Virus record (IMG/VR): IMGVR_UViG_3300025820_000107
Coordinates: 1 to 26,351 of that record
Reading direction: 5' to 3' (one strand)
From: a virus
DNA: 26,351 bases
The translations under genes were made by a program, and so were the position numbers. Every line of letters starts with the position of its first letter. Position 1 is the first letter of the stretch. Below are positions 3,324-25,869 of the stretch, in pieces. The notes below the pieces were generated by a model, which was not told where the DNA came from, did not search any database, and worked only from the letters and a program-made list of their open reading frames with translations.

Positions 3324-3399
3324 TGCAGAAACATCTCTGCAAACACTTGATTTCCAAGGGGATATAAGCGTCATTGGACATGACGCGGGACGGTCCCGC
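3324..3399. promoter_or_regulatory. Three inverted repeats in divergent intergenic region
   Basis: Between the divergent starts at 3289 (minus) and 3430 (plus) lie three perfect inverted repeats: TGCAGA-N6-TCTGCA at 3324-3341, GCGTCAT-N5-ATGACGC at 3368-3386, and GCGGGAC-G-GTCCCGC at 3385-3399; the last two overlap by two bases. The placement between divergent genes fits operators controlling the terminase block and the recombinase cassette. No convincing sigma70 promoter could be picked out, and the copies do not share one consensus. Confidence 0.5.
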
Positions 3400-3429
3400 A
3401 GAACCATAAACCGAAGCAGGAGACGCCCC

Positions 3430-3624
3430 ATGAAACAGGTAAAAAACAGCGACGACGCCAGAACGGCCTACAAAAAGCGCCAGGACAACATTTCCGAGTA
3501 CATCCAGCGGATTCAAAAGAAGCTGGCCGCAGATGCCGGGCAATCGAATATCAACTGGGCGCATGTCGGCTCGCTCGGGCATGTCGAAGAGCTGCTCCAG
3601 CAAATCGATGAGTTTCTGGGTTAA
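3430..3624 (+). CDS. Small helical protein of recombinase cassette, unknown
   Basis: A 64-residue, charged, mostly helical protein starting at an ATG with AGGAG seven bases upstream. It contains a Lys/Arg-rich N-terminal half and an acidic C-terminus (HVEELLQQIDEFLG). No family is recognised. It is the first gene of a plus-strand cassette also holding a free core-binding domain and a tyrosine recombinase, 33 bases upstream of the former. By size and position it could be a recombination directionality factor or regulator, but it lacks a clear HTH, so this is only a guess. Confidence 0.65.
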   Translation: MKQVKNSDDARTAYKKRQDNISEYIQRIQKKLAADAGQSNINWAHVGSLGHVEELLQQIDEFLG

Positions 3625-3657: not shown

Positions 3658-4029
3658 ATGACAGAAATGACCATTCATGAAACCACAGCCGCCTTCATCA
3701 ACCATCTTCGGGAGAACGGCAAAAAGGAGCGGACGCTCTACACCTACCGGAAGGACCTCGATCTCATCGAGGGATACTTTGGCAAAGACAAGAAGATTCA
3801 GGAGCTGCGTATCACTCAGGTTGGAAAGTTCCTCAAATGCGATTCGCTGCTGAAGCTCGGAAATGGCAATGCCCGGGCCGAAAGAACCGTCGCCAAGACC
3901 ATCCGCGTATTCCGGATGATGCTGGTCTGGGCCAAGGATACCGGACTTATCGATGAGCTTCCGCTGCCCAAGAGCACCCCGATGGGACACAGCAAGCAGA
4001 CGGAGGTGACCGATGCCGAACAGCAGTGA
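3658..4029 (+). CDS. Free-standing core-binding (SAM-like) domain protein of tyrosine recombinase type
   Basis: A 123-residue protein matching only the N-terminal core-binding domain of tyrosine recombinases: residues about 5-105 have the usual pattern (TAAFINHLRENGKKERTLYTY, then YFGKD, then a final helix with FRMMLVWAKDTGLI). No catalytic R-K-H-R-H-Y residues follow. Its stop lies inside the next gene: the two overlap by 17 bases (4013-4029) in different frames. The downstream recombinase has its own complete core-binding domain, so this is not simply its broken front end. It may bind the same DNA sites and act as an accessory or regulatory factor. AGGAG eight bases before the ATG supports the start. 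Confidence 0.75.
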   Translation: MTEMTIHETTAAFINHLRENGKKERTLYTYRKDLDLIEGYFGKDKKIQELRITQVGKFLKCDSLLKLGNGNARAERTVAKTIRVFRMMLVWAKDTGLIDELPLPKSTPMGHSKQTEVTDAEQQ

Positions 4030-4921
4030 TCGACTGGAAGCGGCAATAGAGCGGTTCTGTTCCCACCTGTCGGCCGAAAACAAAGCGGCAGGGACGGTGA
4101 CCGCATACCGGCGGGATCTGCGACTGGTGGCCTGTGTAGCCGAATCCTTCCAGCCCGGACTCTGCTGCCAAGATGTGACACCGGGCCTGCTGGACAGGAC
4201 TTTATCCTCGCCAGAGGTTTTGACCATAGACTCGGGAGCACGGTCACCGGCATCGGTGCATCGCTTGAAGGCGGCGGTCCGCTCGTTCTTTACTTGGACA
4301 ACCGATGCCGGGCTTACATCTGAAAACCCGGCTCGGTCGGTTCGCATGAAAAGACTGGCGCAGAAGCCGCCGGTGTTTCTTACGGCTTCAGAAAAGAAGG
4401 CATTGCTGAAAGAGGTAAAAGGTCGCACGGGCTTTGCCGGAATGCGGGATCGGGTCATGATCGAAGTCCTGCTTGGCACCGGCATCCGTATCGGCGAGCT
4501 TGAGGCATTGGACGTGGACGATATCGACCTCGATGCAAAGCATTTGAGAGTCAGAGCCAAAGGGAATGTGGTGCAGGTCAAGTTCATAAAAACCGACCTC
4601 CGCATCCTGCTAAACAGATATTTGAAAGAACGATCCCGGCAAAGCACAGCGCCATGCAGCGCACTGTTTCTGTCCAATAGAGGAACACGTCTTTGCCAGC
4701 GGCAGATAGCCAACCGAATAGCCTTGTGGCTGAGGAAGGCCGGGATTGAAAAGAACCTGACTCCGCATGGCCTGCGGCATACGTTTGCAACCCACCTTTA
4801 CGGTGCCACCAGTGACCTGCTTGTCGTGCAGAGGGCGCTGGGGCACCGGGATATTTCAACGACCCAGATTTACACCCACCTTGTCGATGGCCAGCTCGAG
4901 GATGCCCTTGAAAGACTGTGA
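4013..4921 (+). CDS. XerC/D-type tyrosine recombinase
   Basis: A full-length 302-residue site-specific recombinase that cuts and joins DNA through a 3'-phosphotyrosine. The core-binding domain spans about residues 5-110. All catalytic positions are visible in the C-terminal domain: R159 (GTGIRIGE), K183 (RAKGN), H252 and R255 (PHGLRH), H278 (ALGHRD) and nucleophile Y287 (TTQIYTH). The length and the VVQRALGH...STTQIYTH block are typical of Xer enzymes. The start has GGAGG before it. It is encoded against the surrounding phage genes and is followed at once by three 45-bp-spaced palindromic sites, which are candidates for its target. It could serve integration, dimer resolution or movement of this cassette. 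Confidence 0.92.
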   Translation: MPNSSDRLEAAIERFCSHLSAENKAAGTVTAYRRDLRLVACVAESFQPGLCCQDVTPGLLDRTLSSPEVLTIDSGARSPASVHRLKAAVRSFFTWTTDAGLTSENPARSVRMKRLAQKPPVFLTASEKKALLKEVKGRTGFAGMRDRVMIEVLLGTGIRIGELEALDVDDIDLDAKHLRVRAKGNVVQVKFIKTDLRILLNRYLKERSRQSTAPCSALFLSNRGTRLCQRQIANRIALWLRKAGIEKNLTPHGLRHTFATHLYGATSDLLVVQRALGHRDISTTQIYTHLVDGQLEDALERL

Positions 4922-4944
4922 CAGCAGTGTTCACCCGAACATCC

Positions 4945-7723: not shown

Positions 7724-8329
7724 TTATTGGTTCCTGGGAGATTCCAGTATGTTTTCAACAAGTTTGTAGACGGTCGTTCCTGTTGTGCGCGGCCAGTCAT
7801 CGCACTGAGGGCTGTCCCGTTGTCTGGCTCTCCTGATGGCATCGGCAATCATTGTGTCCGATATTTTTCTTATATCGATGCCTTTGTCGTAACTGGGGAG
7901 ATGACGCTCTAATTTTTGGGAACATATCTGTGAACTGCTGGCACCTCCACCATCCTCAAAATGCAGAAGAAGCCACAATTCGAATTTGGGATTACTGAGT
8001 GCAAATCCATAATTATCAGCCTGCTGGGACCATTGATGTATCTGTGACAATTGTTCGTCAGTCCATTGGTCCTTGTCGACCACCAGCCATGCTTCATCCG
8101 ACTTTTTCAAACCTTCCTTTTTCAGGTGGTTTTCCATTCTGGCAAGCACCTGAGGCGGCGAGCTGTCGTGTTTACCCTTGAGACAATTCACTCGAATAAC
8201 GGAATTCTGATCGTTGAATACAGCAAAGTACTGCGGCTCTGTCTTAATGCCTTCAACAGCTAAAATGAACATCTTCCGATAACGGCGTTCACCCAGCGGC
8301 CGACTGAATTTTCTTCTTTTGGGAGGCAT
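7724..8329 (-). CDS. RloB / AbiLii-family nuclease-like protein
   Basis: A 201-residue protein of the RloB family, paired in AbiL-type abortive-infection systems with an AAA ATPase. TOPRIM-like acidic residues are visible: E26 in AVEGIKTEP and D85/D87 in VVDKDQW. The family signature NPKFELWLLLHFED spans about residues 113-126. The N-terminus is very basic (PPKRRKFSR). RloB is thought to be the toxic effector, probably acting on nucleic acid. The ATG shares its A with the TGA of the ATPase gene, so translation is coupled. Here it would protect the lysogen from other phages. The precise system subtype cannot be set from sequence alone. Confidence 0.85.
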   Translation of the reverse strand: MPPKRRKFSRPLGERRYRKMFILAVEGIKTEPQYFAVFNDQNSVIRVNCLKGKHDSSPPQVLARMENHLKKEGLKKSDEAWLVVDKDQWTDEQLSQIHQWSQQADNYGFALSNPKFELWLLLHFEDGGGASSSQICSQKLERHLPSYDKGIDIRKISDTMIADAIRRARQRDSPQCDDWPRTTGTTVYKLVENILESPRNQ

Positions 8330-9657
8330 CAGTCATCCTCCCTTTGATTAGTCAGGGCGTTACTCAACAGTATTCGGGGCACACCTCCCAACCTTCCTTG
8401 GAGATAGCTTTTGCGGATATCCTTATCATACCGGACATCTTTATAATCGCTGAATGAAAGAAGATCGGAGCTGCCCTTGCGGTTCCTTTCGGCTACCCAC
8501 ATTTCATCCCGCCGGAAAAGCCCCTGATCCATCAGAAGAACATCGTGGGTGGTTATCAACAATTGCGCCCGGCTGTCAGTGCTACAGTTCGCCAGATATG
8601 CTTCGATCAATTGCCGTGTCAGCAGGGAGTGAAGACTGCGGTCAACCTCATCGATGACATACACTTTTTTGGAACTGGTGGCCGAGACTTCAAGAAATGC
8701 CGGTAGCAGGTCGATTACCCTTTGTGAGCCGTCCGATTCCTGGCGGATGTCAAATTTGGCTTCGGTTCCGTCGCTTCTTGAATGAAATGTGACCAGCTTT
8801 TTGGCAACAAGTTCACCAGCTTTCCTTGTAATGATAAACCGCTCGTTTGTCGGCGAAGCGAGAAAGCGGATGGTCATGCCCTCCTTGACGTCTTCCTGTA
8901 GCTTGCTTTTGAGGCTTTCCGGAAAAGGGATGTTTTCAAAGGGAATTTCCTCTCCGCCCAGATGGGAAATTCCGGTATCGAGCTGTGGCAGCATCTCATT
9001 CATGGTGCTGTACAGAGGATGGCCTTCATCAAGAAAATGTTCAAACGGTTCAAATCTTGAATCTGGAGCGATCAACTCCAGAGTATCCTTGAACCAGTCA
9101 TAAACAGGCCGAAAAATATCAACCTTCTGAGACACCGAATTTGTGAGAAATAACTGATTGTCCCTCGTTCCTTTAAACGCAAAATGCAGGAATTGATCCT
9201 TGGCGAGGCTTGGGTCAAAATTCGGGGTGTCTCCCTGCCGATCGTATAAAATCTTCTCGCTGGTACTGGTGATTTGGACCAGCTTTTCGTGGGTAACCGT
9301 CTTTCGGGTTACAGCAAAGCTGAATTCATAGATAATTTCATCAATCAGCAATTCCAGCTTGAAGCGAGAGGGCTTTTCGATGCTGGCACTGTCCAGTCGA
9401 TATGGTTCAACGGGAATCAGACTATCTGGCCCGCTACCTCTGAGGACCAATCCTTTGACAAAACTCAACGCCTTGAAAAAATTGGTCTTCCCGGATGCAT
9501 TGCCTCCATAGATCGCAGCAACCGGCAAAATTCTTGTCTGATATTTGGCCACTTTGGGAACTCGCTCTCCATGCTGCCTTTCTCTGCTGGCAACCATGGA
9601 AAAGGAGACCGAGTCCCGAAAGGACATCCAGTTTTCAATTGAAAAACTTATTATCAT
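8329..9657 (-). CDS. AAA/ABC-type ATPase of RloA / AbiLi family
   Basis: A 442-residue SMC/ABC-like ATPase. The N-terminus IENWMSFRD is typical of AAA_21 and OLD-like ATPases. Walker A is GGNASGKT (51-58), the signature-like segment ESDGSQR lies near 307-313, Walker B is VYVIDEVD (332-339), and an H-loop follows in [12 protein letters not shown] near 373. Such ATPases hold a partner nuclease in check and sense infection; the partner RloB follows with a one-base overlap. AGGAG lies eight bases before the ATG, and a near-consensus sigma70 promoter at 9701-9729 gives independent expression. Its base-level setting as a separate unit with its own promoter and terminator marks it as a phage-carried moron. 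Confidence 0.88.
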
Positions 9658-19229: not shown

Positions 19230-19556
19230 TTATGCTGCCCGTTCCTCAATCCGGATCAGAAATGGCAGCCCATGCTTGATTTCAAGATGACGGATGATTC
19301 CATCGCCTATGCCGGTAAGGTGTTCGAGTAGAGCGAGCACCTCCTGCTTCAGGGTGAAGTCATCCTTTTCCAGCTCCGGACGGGTACCGTTCTGGCCGCC
19401 CAGTTTGATTTCACGCTCGATAATTGTGTCTGCGGTGAGTTCGGGATTTCCGCCAACAACTGGAATGTTGGATATGCGCCCGAAGTTGATTTGCTGCATC
19501 AGCTCGATGAGCTTTTGCTGCGGTTCGTTTAGTTCTGTCTTCTTGATCTGGTTCAT
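19230..19556 (-). CDS. Hypothetical protein, small helical
   Basis: A 108-residue protein of no recognised family. The first half (LNEPQQKLIELMQQINFGRISNIPVVGG) looks helical and then loops; the rest is charged and contains GGQNGTRPELEKDDFTLKQEVLALLEHL. It has AAGGAGG eight bases or less before the ATG. It lies alone between the sigma factor leader and a leader hairpin at 19613-19654. It may share a transcript with the sigma factor, since no terminator lies between them. Confidence 0.7.
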   Translation of the reverse strand: MNQIKKTELNEPQQKLIELMQQINFGRISNIPVVGGNPELTADTIIEREIKLGGQNGTRPELEKDDFTLKQEVLALLEHLTGIGDGIIRHLEIKHGLPFLIRIEERAA

Positions 19557-19612
19557 GCCGAACCTCCTTTGTTAAAGACCTCCCGGAAGACAGGTCCGGC
19601 ATGATTTCTCCG

Positions 19613-19654
19613 GGTGAGGTCGTGAACGTTTTTCTGTTCACCAGACCTGTCACC
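19613..19654 (-). promoter_or_regulatory. Long imperfect hairpin in 5' leader of small gene
   Basis: In the minus-strand transcript GGTGACAGGTC-TG-GTGAAC loops back on GTTCAC-GACCTCACC, leaving an eight-base loop. The paired inner arms are perfect (GTGAAC/GTTCAC and AGGTC/GACCT). It ends about 57 bases before the ATG at 19556 and has no T-tract, so control of mRNA stability or translation is more likely than termination. Three GAAATTTC-centred repeats lie further upstream at 19664-19810 (19664-19671, 19683-19692 and 19794-19803), in the 325-base gap between this gene and the recombinase operon. Confidence 0.5.
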
Positions 19655-19663
19655 CTTCTTTGG

Positions 19664-19810
19664 CGAAATTTCGTTGGACCACTGAAATTTCACTTGATAT
19701 AGATGCGCTTTGATTGGCTAATGCGTTGAATTTAAGGGGGATTTGATTGGATGATACGGGGAAATATTTTTTAACTTTTTTTGCCACCCCTCAGTGAAAT
19801 TTCGTTGAAC
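19664..19810. repeat. Three GAAATTTC-centred repeats
   Basis: GAAATTTCGTTG-GAC at 19665-19679, ACTGAAATTTCACTT at 19681-19695 and GTGAAATTTCGTTGAAC at 19794-19810. Related ACTGAAATTTC and TCTGAAATTT also occur at 5171-5182 and 5197-5206 downstream of the tyrosine recombinase. The core is palindromic and could be an operator, but AT-rich DNA also gives such words by chance. Confidence 0.4.
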
Positions 19811-22884: not shown

Positions 22885-22913
22885 TTGACCTGATGGATAT
22901 AAGGTCGTATATT
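22885..22913 (+). promoter_or_regulatory. Sigma70 promoter of LexA-like gene with candidate operator
   Basis: TTGACC (22885-22890), a 17-base spacer and TATATT (22908-22913). An inverted repeat GACCT-N10-AGGTC (22887-22906) covers the -35 box and spacer. It would suit self-repression by the LexA-like protein and could also shut the divergent element copy 4. It does not match the known E. coli-, Bacillus- or alphaproteobacterial-type LexA boxes. Confidence 0.75.
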
Positions 22914-22969
22914 TGTTTGTTATTCGGCCCAAACTGGGGCTCTCTGTTTTTTTAAAGAAGGAGTACGCT

Positions 22970-23593
22970 ATGGGCAGAAACAGAGAAGACGACATTACGC
23001 CGTTGCAGCAGGAAACACTTGATGAAATATGCCGGTATGTTTCAGCCAAAGGGTATCCGCCGACGGTTAAAGAAATGAGCGAAACATTTGGAATCAGTCA
23101 CGCCAGCGTGCATGACCGGATTAACCAGCTGGTTCGCAAAGGTTATTTGAAAAGAGAGGAAGGCAAAGCTCGCGGTCTAAGCGTAGCCAAACCTCCCCAA
23201 ACAAACGCGGTCGCTCTTGTGGCTGTCCCGATAGTCGGCACGGTTGCAGCCGGTCATCCGATCTTTGCTCAGGAGAACATCACGGGCGAGGTTCTGGTGG
23301 AAGCATCTGTGGTTGGATCAGGCAAGTGCTTTGCCTTGTACGCACGAGGTGACAACATGATCAACGCCGGGATAAATGACGGCGACCTGATCATTGTGAG
23401 GCGTCAGCCAATTGCCGAAGATGGTGATATCGTTATTGCTCTGCTTGACGATGAAGCCACCGTCAAAAGGTTGAAAATTGAAAATGAGCTCATCGAGCTG
23501 GTCCCGGAGAATCCGAGGCTGAAACCGATCAGGATCAAACCTGAAGATGAACTGAGGATTCTCGGCAAAGTAGTGGGCCGTAAACGAATTTGA
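22970..23593 (+). CDS. LexA-like repressor lacking catalytic Ser
   Basis: A 207-residue LexA homologue. The winged HTH covers about residues 10-70 (YPPTVKEMSETFGISHASVHDRINQLVRKGYLKREEG). The cleavage dipeptide is intact (A94-G95 in TVAAGHP), as is Lys166 (DDEATVKRLK). The catalytic Ser, expected in the pattern G-x-S-M, is Asn129 here (RGDNMINAGINDGDL; codon AAC at 23354-23356). A single change from AGC would explain it. Self-cleavage on RecA activation should therefore fail unless another protein supplies the Ser. It may be a stable prophage repressor. AAGGAG before the ATG and the promoter at 22885-22913 support the start. It heads a three-gene plus-strand unit. Confidence 0.88.
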   Translation: MGRNREDDITPLQQETLDEICRYVSAKGYPPTVKEMSETFGISHASVHDRINQLVRKGYLKREEGKARGLSVAKPPQTNAVALVAVPIVGTVAAGHPIFAQENITGEVLVEASVVGSGKCFALYARGDNMINAGINDGDLIIVRRQPIAEDGDIVIALLDDEATVKRLKIENELIELVPENPRLKPIRIKPEDELRILGKVVGRKRI

Positions 23594-23642: not shown

Positions 23643-24809
23643 ATGGCAACTTTTAACCTTCGCCGCTTTTCAAAGCCGGAAATGCTTCGGAAGATTGACC
23701 GAAGCCATCTGATCACATTTTTTGAGCCCTACACCGAATATCTATCCGGGCGAGGGATAGAGTTGCCATCGGCAGCCGCAGAAAACGGACTGGACTATAC
23801 AGTCATGAGTAACGTGCTGCTGAACCCGAACACCAGCACACCACCTGAGATGTCGGAAGCCCTCTATTACATTAACGAGATGTCGACTCCTGAGGGTTTC
23901 GACCTGATACAGGAGGCCATTGCCGACACCGAGATCGATGTCAGTATCTCCGAAGATGCCGCTTACGGTGACCTGGCTCTGCAGGTCTGGGTTCAGGACC
24001 GCAATATCATCGAGCGTCTCCATGCCGAGCAGTTCCTGTTTCGCCCCCGCTCATTTGAATATTTCAAATGCACCCGAGAAACCATTCCGGACTTTGAAGA
24101 ACCGAGCGAAGAAACCATCGCCGCCCTCGAAGCGGATCTGGATGAATGGTTTGCCAAGAAGCGCCGGGGCCGGGCTTCAAAGGTATTCATCTATGTGAAA
24201 GAGGATTTTGTCTGGTTCCTTGTCCGTCATGGAGAGCCCTTCGCTCGGGAATCAATCATCAAGGACGGTGAATCCAAAAGTCTGTTCTATCGGCCGGAAA
24301 AATATGACGTGATTGTTTACAACCCAGAGAATGGGGAGATCCGGATGAACGCACGCTCCAAAGGGGAAAAGGAACTGTACCGCACCAAGTTTGGCCTTCA
24401 TCTTTTTGGTGACAGCGAGTTTTTCGATGGCAAAAGCAAATTCACTTTGGAGCCGTTGAGGGAGTCTGGTTCAGCTTCCATCCTCTGTGATGATATTGAA
24501 GGGATCGATTGGGTGCGCCTCAAGGAGTTCCAGATCTTCCGTGGCGGAACACATAAAGAGATCGAAATCCGCAAAGCCGAGGACATCTTTGCATCACTGG
24601 AAGAGTGGGATCGCAGCATCCCCAATGGCGGCCGTTTGAGCAAAGCCAGCTTCCAGATCAAGTTTGCCGACTCCAAAACACCACGAACCGTTACCCTCAG
24701 CTCCGGCAACAGGGCTCAGTTCAAACGGGACGATGATGCTGAAGTTCTGGAAAAATGGCTGATTCGCCGTGGGTTTGTCATTTCCGGCGCGGAGGACGAC
24801 GGTGAGTGA
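23643..24809 (+). CDS. Hypothetical protein A of LexA-linked pair
   Basis: A 388-residue soluble protein of no recognised family. The N-terminal part (residues about 3-115: LRRFSKPEMLRKIDRSHLITFFEPYTEYL, then NPNTSTPPEMSEALYYINEMSTPEGFDLIQEA) looks helical; the middle is mixed with FVWFLVRHGEPFARES and NPENGEIRMNARS; the C-terminal third is beta-rich. No catalytic motif, HTH or membrane segment is evident. It has AGGAG before its ATG, 49 bases after the LexA-like gene, and overlaps the next gene by eight bases, so the two are translationally coupled. Proteins with a similar N-terminal LRRFSxPExL block seem familiar from other bacteria, but function is unknown. Confidence 0.82.
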   Translation: MATFNLRRFSKPEMLRKIDRSHLITFFEPYTEYLSGRGIELPSAAAENGLDYTVMSNVLLNPNTSTPPEMSEALYYINEMSTPEGFDLIQEAIADTEIDVSISEDAAYGDLALQVWVQDRNIIERLHAEQFLFRPRSFEYFKCTRETIPDFEEPSEETIAALEADLDEWFAKKRRGRASKVFIYVKEDFVWFLVRHGEPFARESIIKDGESKSLFYRPEKYDVIVYNPENGEIRMNARSKGEKELYRTKFGLHLFGDSEFFDGKSKFTLEPLRESGSASILCDDIEGIDWVRLKEFQIFRGGTHKEIEIRKAEDIFASLEEWDRSIPNGGRLSKASFQIKFADSKTPRTVTLSSGNRAQFKRDDDAEVLEKWLIRRGFVISGAEDDGE

Positions 24810-25869
24810 ACCCCGCCTGTGGCAATTTTTAGAAGAGCACCCGAAGCAGAATGCTGCGTGGTGTGAATGGCAGGATGCGTTTGGCGGCTGGGATTCCTTC
24901 AGTGGGTTTGAAACGAAGTTACTGCAGCTGACCAATCAGCGTGTGTCTGCGGTCAATTGCAGAACCGACTGTGGACTGGGCTGCCCCAGAAAAGTTGTCG
25001 AGCATGGCGCCGATGATATTGCTGCGGTGTGCCCTGAGCAGGAAGAGAAGCCATATAGTCTGAACAAGAGGGATGTGCTGGTCTATACATTGAACCGGTC
25101 ATCGTTCCACAAAAGCATCTGTGCCGGGCTTGGAATAACACGAAATGAAAATTCACTGGACGGCATTCCCGGTGTTTTCCGTCTGGGGGATTACACGCCG
25201 ACCGCCGGTTTCAATTTTCCGGTTTACCTGACCTTCAAGAACGACCCGGACGAACTTCTCGAAAGCGTCAGGAATATCCGCCTGCTTGGGCAGGACTCTT
25301 ATGCGTTGCTCATTCCAACCCGCAAGCAACTGACACCCCGGACCGAAGGCCTGCTGAGCCGGAGTGGTTCAATATGTATCGTGCTCAGCGAGGAATTTTC
25401 CATTCAAGCCAATGGTAGCCTGAAAGCTCTCAGGCCAGCGACCGATGTATTTGCAACCTTTCAGGCTGATGTACCTGAACCGGATTCTGGAGGTATGGTT
25501 CATTTCGACACGCCTGCCGGTATCAGCTGGAGCGGTATCACCATCAAATTTATTGACGGGCATACCGTTTCCATCCGTACCACCAAAGCGCACGGCCAAT
25601 ACAATTATACCCAGATGGGAATGGCTAATACCAGAAATGGCAACCCGACCATTCCTTGGGAGCTCCTTAGAGCTTTTGCCGAATCACGCGGCCAGATTGA
25701 TTGGCAGAGCCAGCATGCGTCTTTCAAGGTCAAGGACCAGAAACCGCGCCTGTCAAAAAAGCTCCGGGAGTTTTTCCGTCTGACAGACGACCCGATTGAA
25801 TACCTGAAGGAAGAAGGCTGCTATCGCTGCCTATTCACAATCAAGCCCGAGGGAGCCGATGATTATTGA
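24802..25869 (+). CDS. Hypothetical protein B of LexA-linked pair, Cys-rich
   Basis: A 355-residue protein of no recognised family. The N-terminus has an unusual cysteine cluster (C53, C57, C61, C77; C-x3-C-x3-C-x15-C), which could bind zinc or an Fe-S cluster. A middle part (LLGQDSYALLIPTRKQLTPRTEGLLSRSGSICIVLSEEF) looks alpha/beta, and the C-terminal 80 residues (NPTIPWELLRAFAESRG...SKKLREFFRLTDDPIEY) resemble a winged-helix-like fold, which I cannot confirm. The GTG start has GGAGG upstream and overlaps the previous gene by eight bases; an in-frame ATG 33 bases earlier lacks spacing. It is the last gene before the tmRNA. Confidence 0.8.
   Translation: MSEPRLWQFLEEHPKQNAAWCEWQDAFGGWDSFSGFETKLLQLTNQRVSAVNCRTDCGLGCPRKVVEHGADDIAAVCPEQEEKPYSLNKRDVLVYTLNRSSFHKSICAGLGITRNENSLDGIPGVFRLGDYTPTAGFNFPVYLTFKNDPDELLESVRNIRLLGQDSYALLIPTRKQLTPRTEGLLSRSGSICIVLSEEFSIQANGSLKALRPATDVFATFQADVPEPDSGGMVHFDTPAGISWSGITIKFIDGHTVSIRTTKAHGQYNYTQMGMANTRNGNPTIPWELLRAFAESRGQIDWQSQHASFKVKDQKPRLSKKLREFFRLTDDPIEYLKEEGCYRCLFTIKPEGADDY

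Follow-up and report, generated by a model that had tools for sequence, protein, structure and literature searches.

The closest described counterpart of the locus studied here is LexA2 of Leptospira interrogans, a prophage-borne LexA that binds its own promoter at TTGTA-N10-TACAA, keeps Ser130 and Lys166, has a Cys-Gly scissile bond and is depleted after UV irradiation (PMC3789691). For the chromosomal LexA of E. coli, S119 and K156 are required, according to the work of Slilaty and Little (1987) as cited in PMC3789691. Phage repressors that cannot be cleaved form a well-known class, in which the property usually belongs to a whole lineage (PMC3121763, PMC10432266). Those of the Gifsy GfoR/GtgR type are short, have no cleavage motif and depend on an antirepressor as a family trait (PMC3121763).

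The whole stretch of DNA analysed here, hereafter the window, comprises 26,351 nt of the virus record IMGVR_UViG_3300025820_000107, which stems from bacteria of the sulfate-reducing type. It contains a gene for a LexA-like repressor with the following features:

22970-23593, + strand: LexA-like repressor gene, 207 aa (translation, domain and family profiles, alignment to E. coli LexA)
22991-23176, + strand: winged-helix DNA-binding domain of LexA, PF01726, residues 8-69 (E 3.4e-15)
23249-23254, + strand: codons of the scissile bond A94-G95, conserved (translation, alignment to E. coli LexA, homologue survey)
23354-23356, + strand: codon 129, AAC (Asn), at the catalytic Ser position; AGC or AGT in relatives (translation, DNA, relatives)
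23465-23467, + strand: codon of the catalytic Lys166, conserved (translation, alignment to E. coli LexA, homologue survey)

The open reading frame starts with ATG, preceded by GAAGGAG. Its product matched the lexA equivalog profile of NCBIfam (TIGR00498) over the full length with 178.7 bits, above the cut-off of 110.95, and the Peptidase_S24 domain (PF00717, residues 87-202) is complete. We read the gene as that of the LexA-type autorepressor in a family of temperate phages from Desulfobacterota.

An earlier note on this DNA had reported that the Ala-Gly bond and Lys166 are conserved and that Asn129 stands in place of the catalytic Ser; all three readings held. When the protein is aligned with the solved E. 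coli LexA, its A94-G95 bond corresponds to Ala84-Gly85, and K166 and N129 match Lys156 and Ser119, respectively. The residues in question lie in the contexts V-A-A94-G95, G127-D128-N129-M130 and T-V-K166-R, and the DNA around codon 129 reads GGT GAC AAC ATG. Of the features of self-cleaving S24 repressors, the window protein has the Ala-Gly bond and the Lys, 37 residues after the Ser position, but not the Ser itself. The LexA_DNA_bind and Peptidase_S24 profiles both matched strongly. Asn129 comes neither from misalignment nor from reading the wrong frame, and the open reading frame is not a product of chance.

The window is a partial record, so that phage defects elsewhere are possible; records of its relatives reach about 14-16 kb further left. 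Genes for a terminase, a tyrosine integrase, a primase, a RecD-like helicase, an exonuclease, a large serine recombinase and a DUF2924 protein were found, and the right end cuts a tmRNA gene (Rfam RF00023, 26237-26351, 3' part). This end point, together with the gene content, is consistent with an integrated prophage. Both types of integrase, tyrosine and large serine, are thus present in the window. In the related record L004 a full tmRNA occupies the matching place, which makes ssrA the apparent location of the element family. On the minus strand, positions 7724-9657 hold a gene pair matching abortive-infection AbiLi and AbiLii (PADLOC, E 1.8e-79 and 4.2e-25), within a stretch of about 7.45-9.76 kb that is unaligned in the four closest relatives.

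Five close relatives with 94-97% identity were compared: the viral records L002, L003 and L004 and the bacterial genomes L005 (Desulfatitalea alkaliphila) and L006 (a Desulfobulbaceae MAG). All five have the catalytic Ser, encoded by AGC or AGT; in L006 the motif is GNSM, with an Asn one position earlier and the Ser retained. The Ser was also found in all of five deeper relatives from the same class (67-77% identity). When loci were fetched by similarity and not by the Ser motif, Ser was present in 36 of 37 distinct sequences, the window being the exception, while the A-G bond and the Lys were present in all 37. The lexA gene tree places the Ser-to-Asn change on the terminal branch of the window, whose sister L002 has the codon AGC, as one G-to-A substitution (AGC to AAC) at base 23355.

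Motif scans bound, rather than measure, the true frequency of non-Ser forms, since a strict motif was demanded and the window's own record was left out. No viral contig had G-x-N-M with the GI-x-DGD motif, whereas the version with Ser AGY codons was found in at least 120. The viral-contig scan with the Lys spacing and codons [AG][AC]N gave two matches, one of them a chance match, against at least 120 for AGY, and among 291 genomes of the class there was no non-Ser site against 39 Ser sites. The other match of the viral scan, a UmuD-like protein on the reverse strand of L152 (motif 3369-3490) with GDAM, hence Ala for the catalytic Ser, and with the A-G bond and Lys intact, was the only other non-Ser case met.

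Asn as a fixed trait of the family was ruled out by the Ser in close and deeper relatives and in the 36 survey sequences. The alignment of homologues, which the earlier note had proposed for deciding whether Asn is fixed, therefore turned out against it: in the sequences compared, Asn129 is private to one record. The finding is, provided the base is right, a private loss-of-nucleophile allele in one copy only.

The surroundings of the gene, upstream and downstream, are as follows:

22885-22913, + strand: promoter-like site TTGACC-17-TATATT of the lexA operon (position conserved across a 9-sequence alignment)
22887-22906, no strand: predicted operator GACCT-N10-AGGTC inside the promoter, in the -35/-10 spacer (arms conserved, spacer varies)
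22926-22941, with tail to 22950, + strand: leader hairpin with a T-rich stretch behind it, downstream of the promoter and ahead of the lexA start (compensatory changes preserve the stem)
23643-24809, + strand: second gene of the lexA operon, 388 aa, conserved (synteny in 5 deeper relatives)
24811-25869, + strand: third gene of the lexA operon, 352 aa, conserved (synteny in 5 deeper relatives)

For a given exact match of this kind, chance predicts about 0.025 occurrences in a sequence as long as the window (26351/4^10). Its arms are kept in all six close elements with a variable spacer, and its counterpart in the deeper relatives is (G/A)ACCTGA-N6-TCAGGT(C/T), equally placed relative to -35 and -10. 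Because the arms are kept while the spacer varies, and the placement is kept in deeper relatives, the repeat has the pattern of an autorepressor operator; the predicted site would be a palindromic operator over the gene's own promoter, as in autoregulation of the LexA2 kind. Further downstream, the leader hairpin with its T-rich tail looks like an attenuator by sequence; compensatory changes in relatives turn GGCCC/GGGCC into GGCGC/GCGCC.

The 388-aa and 352-aa genes stay with lexA in five of the five deeper regions examined, and neither matched a family in Pfam, NCBIfam or PHROG. The predicted fold of the 388-aa protein, a medium-confidence model (pLDDT 70), matched RdgC and CENP-N in Foldseek with E 5.6e-6 to 7e-4 and a probability near 1, at low TM-scores of 0.2-0.33. 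RdgC is known to affect RecA. For the 352-aa protein, structure prediction gave a poor model (mean pLDDT 47). Some relatives carry additional genes at this operon that are absent from the window: in L003 an insertion of two genes (3824-4931) separates lexA from the operator, and in L004 the third operon gene is followed by one for a 193-aa protein (7923-8504), none of them with a family match in the libraries searched. Relative to the replication operon, the block running from a small recombinase-associated gene over the large serine recombinase, DUF2924 and lexA to the two lexA partners has the opposite orientation in L273, L274 and L275 from that in the window and L276.

The same repeat occurs once more in the window:

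19577-19596, no strand: second exact GACCT-N10-AGGTC, possible second operator, just upstream of ORF 19230-19556

All six close elements and L276 have this copy without a mismatch, and ORF 19230-19556 is the first gene of the leftward replication operon. The leader of this gene (19557-19665, minus strand) is strongly conserved in L002-L006, L272, L273, L274 and L276. In its predicted fold (z -3.85) the ribosome-binding site and start codon are paired: CATGCCGGACCT pairs with AGGAGGTTCGGCATG, which contains both, and GACAGGTC, lying upstream, is perfectly complementary to GACCTGTC of that stem. This suggests two alternative folds. The leader had no family match in an Rfam search. Since the bases of the repeat belong to this conserved leader, a role in the RNA explains them equally well, and their reading as an operator of a lytic operon was downgraded in view of a leader that may sequester the ribosome-binding site.

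In the ancestral element, the LexA-like protein would bind GACCT-N10-AGGTC, between the -35 and -10 boxes of the lexA promoter, and shut the operon of lexA and the 388-aa and 352-aa genes; upon DNA damage, RecA-stimulated self-cleavage at A94-G95 by Ser129 and Lys166 would release it. In the window record a recent single G-to-A change would then have converted Ser129 into Asn. The Asn129 copy is predicted to fold, dimerise and bind the operator normally but without cutting itself. It would behave as an Ind- allele, remaining bound when DNA is damaged except where a partner protein with Ser cleaves it in trans. We thus favour, with a probability of roughly 0.6, the reading that this lineage carries a prophage LexA of the ordinary kind, cleavable and autorepressed, of which the window holds a real, private G-to-A copy that is non-cleavable in cis.

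That loss of the Ser nucleophile should abolish self-cleavage, as the earlier note had expected, agrees with the requirement for Ser119 and Lys156 in E. coli LexA (cited in PMC3789691), and cleavage of the Asn129 copy in cis should accordingly fail. The wider claim, that the substitution changes the induction logic of the element, was not borne out for the family: related elements elsewhere all keep Ser, so that their induction logic is conventional, and the effect is limited to one copy. By sequence, the element family would have an ordinary SOS-cleavable LexA-type prophage repressor with its own operator.

With cleavage site and Lys intact, the Asn129 copy could still be cut in trans, a reaction between molecules that is known for LexA. 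Both bacterial genomes carrying relatives contain a further LexA, about 37% identical. Trans-cleavage could come from a host LexA or from a co-resident Ser-bearing relative. The other source that had been proposed, a second protease-domain protein of the element, found no counterpart: the window has one S24 match, as has each viral record of L002, L003 and L004, and no second S24 protein was found in any of them.

The most serious alternative to a real substitution is that Asn129 stems from faulty sequencing or assembly, or from a minority variant taken as consensus, the true gene having Ser129 and encoding an ordinary SOS-cleavable repressor. Only one base (23355) of one metagenomic-type virus record is concerned, Ser is present in every relative, and lexA shows no other degradation; moreover, selection normally purges real substitutions of catalytic residues while errors go unfiltered, which raises the relative odds of an error. 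The private substitutions of the window relative to the five relatives are 98 synonymous and 38 replacement, with no stop, whereas among random errors replacements should outnumber synonymous changes about 2.4-3.2 to one, with 3-4% stops. The private replacement/synonymous ratio of 0.39 lies within the 0.13-0.57 of the relatives and private stops are absent, so errors can account for only a small part of the private changes of the window. We consider an error at this base unlikely, though to be taken seriously; this weight is a judgement, with no computed value.

Only two private replacements fall within lexA, S129N and V189I. The pN/pS of the gene, about 0.09-0.11, is like that of most other genes; lexA is under purifying selection and its reading frame is intact. 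Hypermutation or G-to-A damage of the record was ruled out by a G-to-A share like that of the relatives, and gene decay by the normal pN/pS and the lack of private stops.

A real Asn129 may instead have been selected, as a natural Ind- allele of a prophage that is locked in or domesticated, blind to SOS and released only in trans or by another signal, such as an antirepressor or attenuation at the lexA leader hairpin. Other phage groups often have non-cleavable repressors governed by an antirepressor (PMC3121763), and 210 of 271 repressors were scored as putatively non-autoproteolytic (PMC10432266); the conserved hairpin with its T-rich tail and the further LexA of the two bacterial genomes would also suit such a scheme. 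Against this stand the lack of Asn in any relative, the single S24 protein in the window and in the viral records of relatives, the lack of a recognised antirepressor-like gene in the parts of the window scanned, and the lack of any sign of repeated Ser loss in the family, and we hold selection for Asn to be improbable. That Asn129 supports some cleavage and leaves function unchanged is most improbable: Asn is polar and the remaining active site is intact, but direct support is nil, no scan gave an Asn homologue at position 129, and E. coli LexA depends on Ser119 (Slilaty and Little 1987, as cited in PMC3789691).

If the base is real, the copy favoured here would be a natural single-residue switch from an SOS-inducible to a non-inducible state in a phage family that is otherwise intact, and its near-identical siblings with Ser would serve as built-in controls. 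The case also advises caution where induction behaviour is inferred from one metagenomic record, which should be checked against relatives.

Like LexA2 of Leptospira, the window protein is a LexA-like protein in a prophage region, with a predicted inverted repeat of 10-base spacing at its own promoter (here GACCT-N10-AGGTC) and nearly equal catalytic positions (Ser130 and Lys166 in LexA2, 129 and Lys166 here); it differs in having Asn in place of Ser and Ala-Gly in place of Cys-Gly. With chromosomal LexA (E. coli, TIGR00498) it shares both domains, the A-G bond, the Lys and a full-length alignment, but its catalytic Ser is replaced and it is phage-borne, beside the host's own lexA, as seen in the hosts of relatives. 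As in Gifsy GfoR/GtgR and other non-cleavable phage repressors (PMC3121763), a working autocleavage site would be lacking; unlike the Gifsy type, the S24 domain is complete, one residue is changed in one copy, relatives keep the Ser, and no antirepressor family was found among the window genes scanned. Operator binding without cleavage is predicted, as for the laboratory non-cleavable LexA (S119A; lexA3) and lambda cI ind-, whereas the window allele is natural, has Asn rather than Ala and would act at a phage operator.
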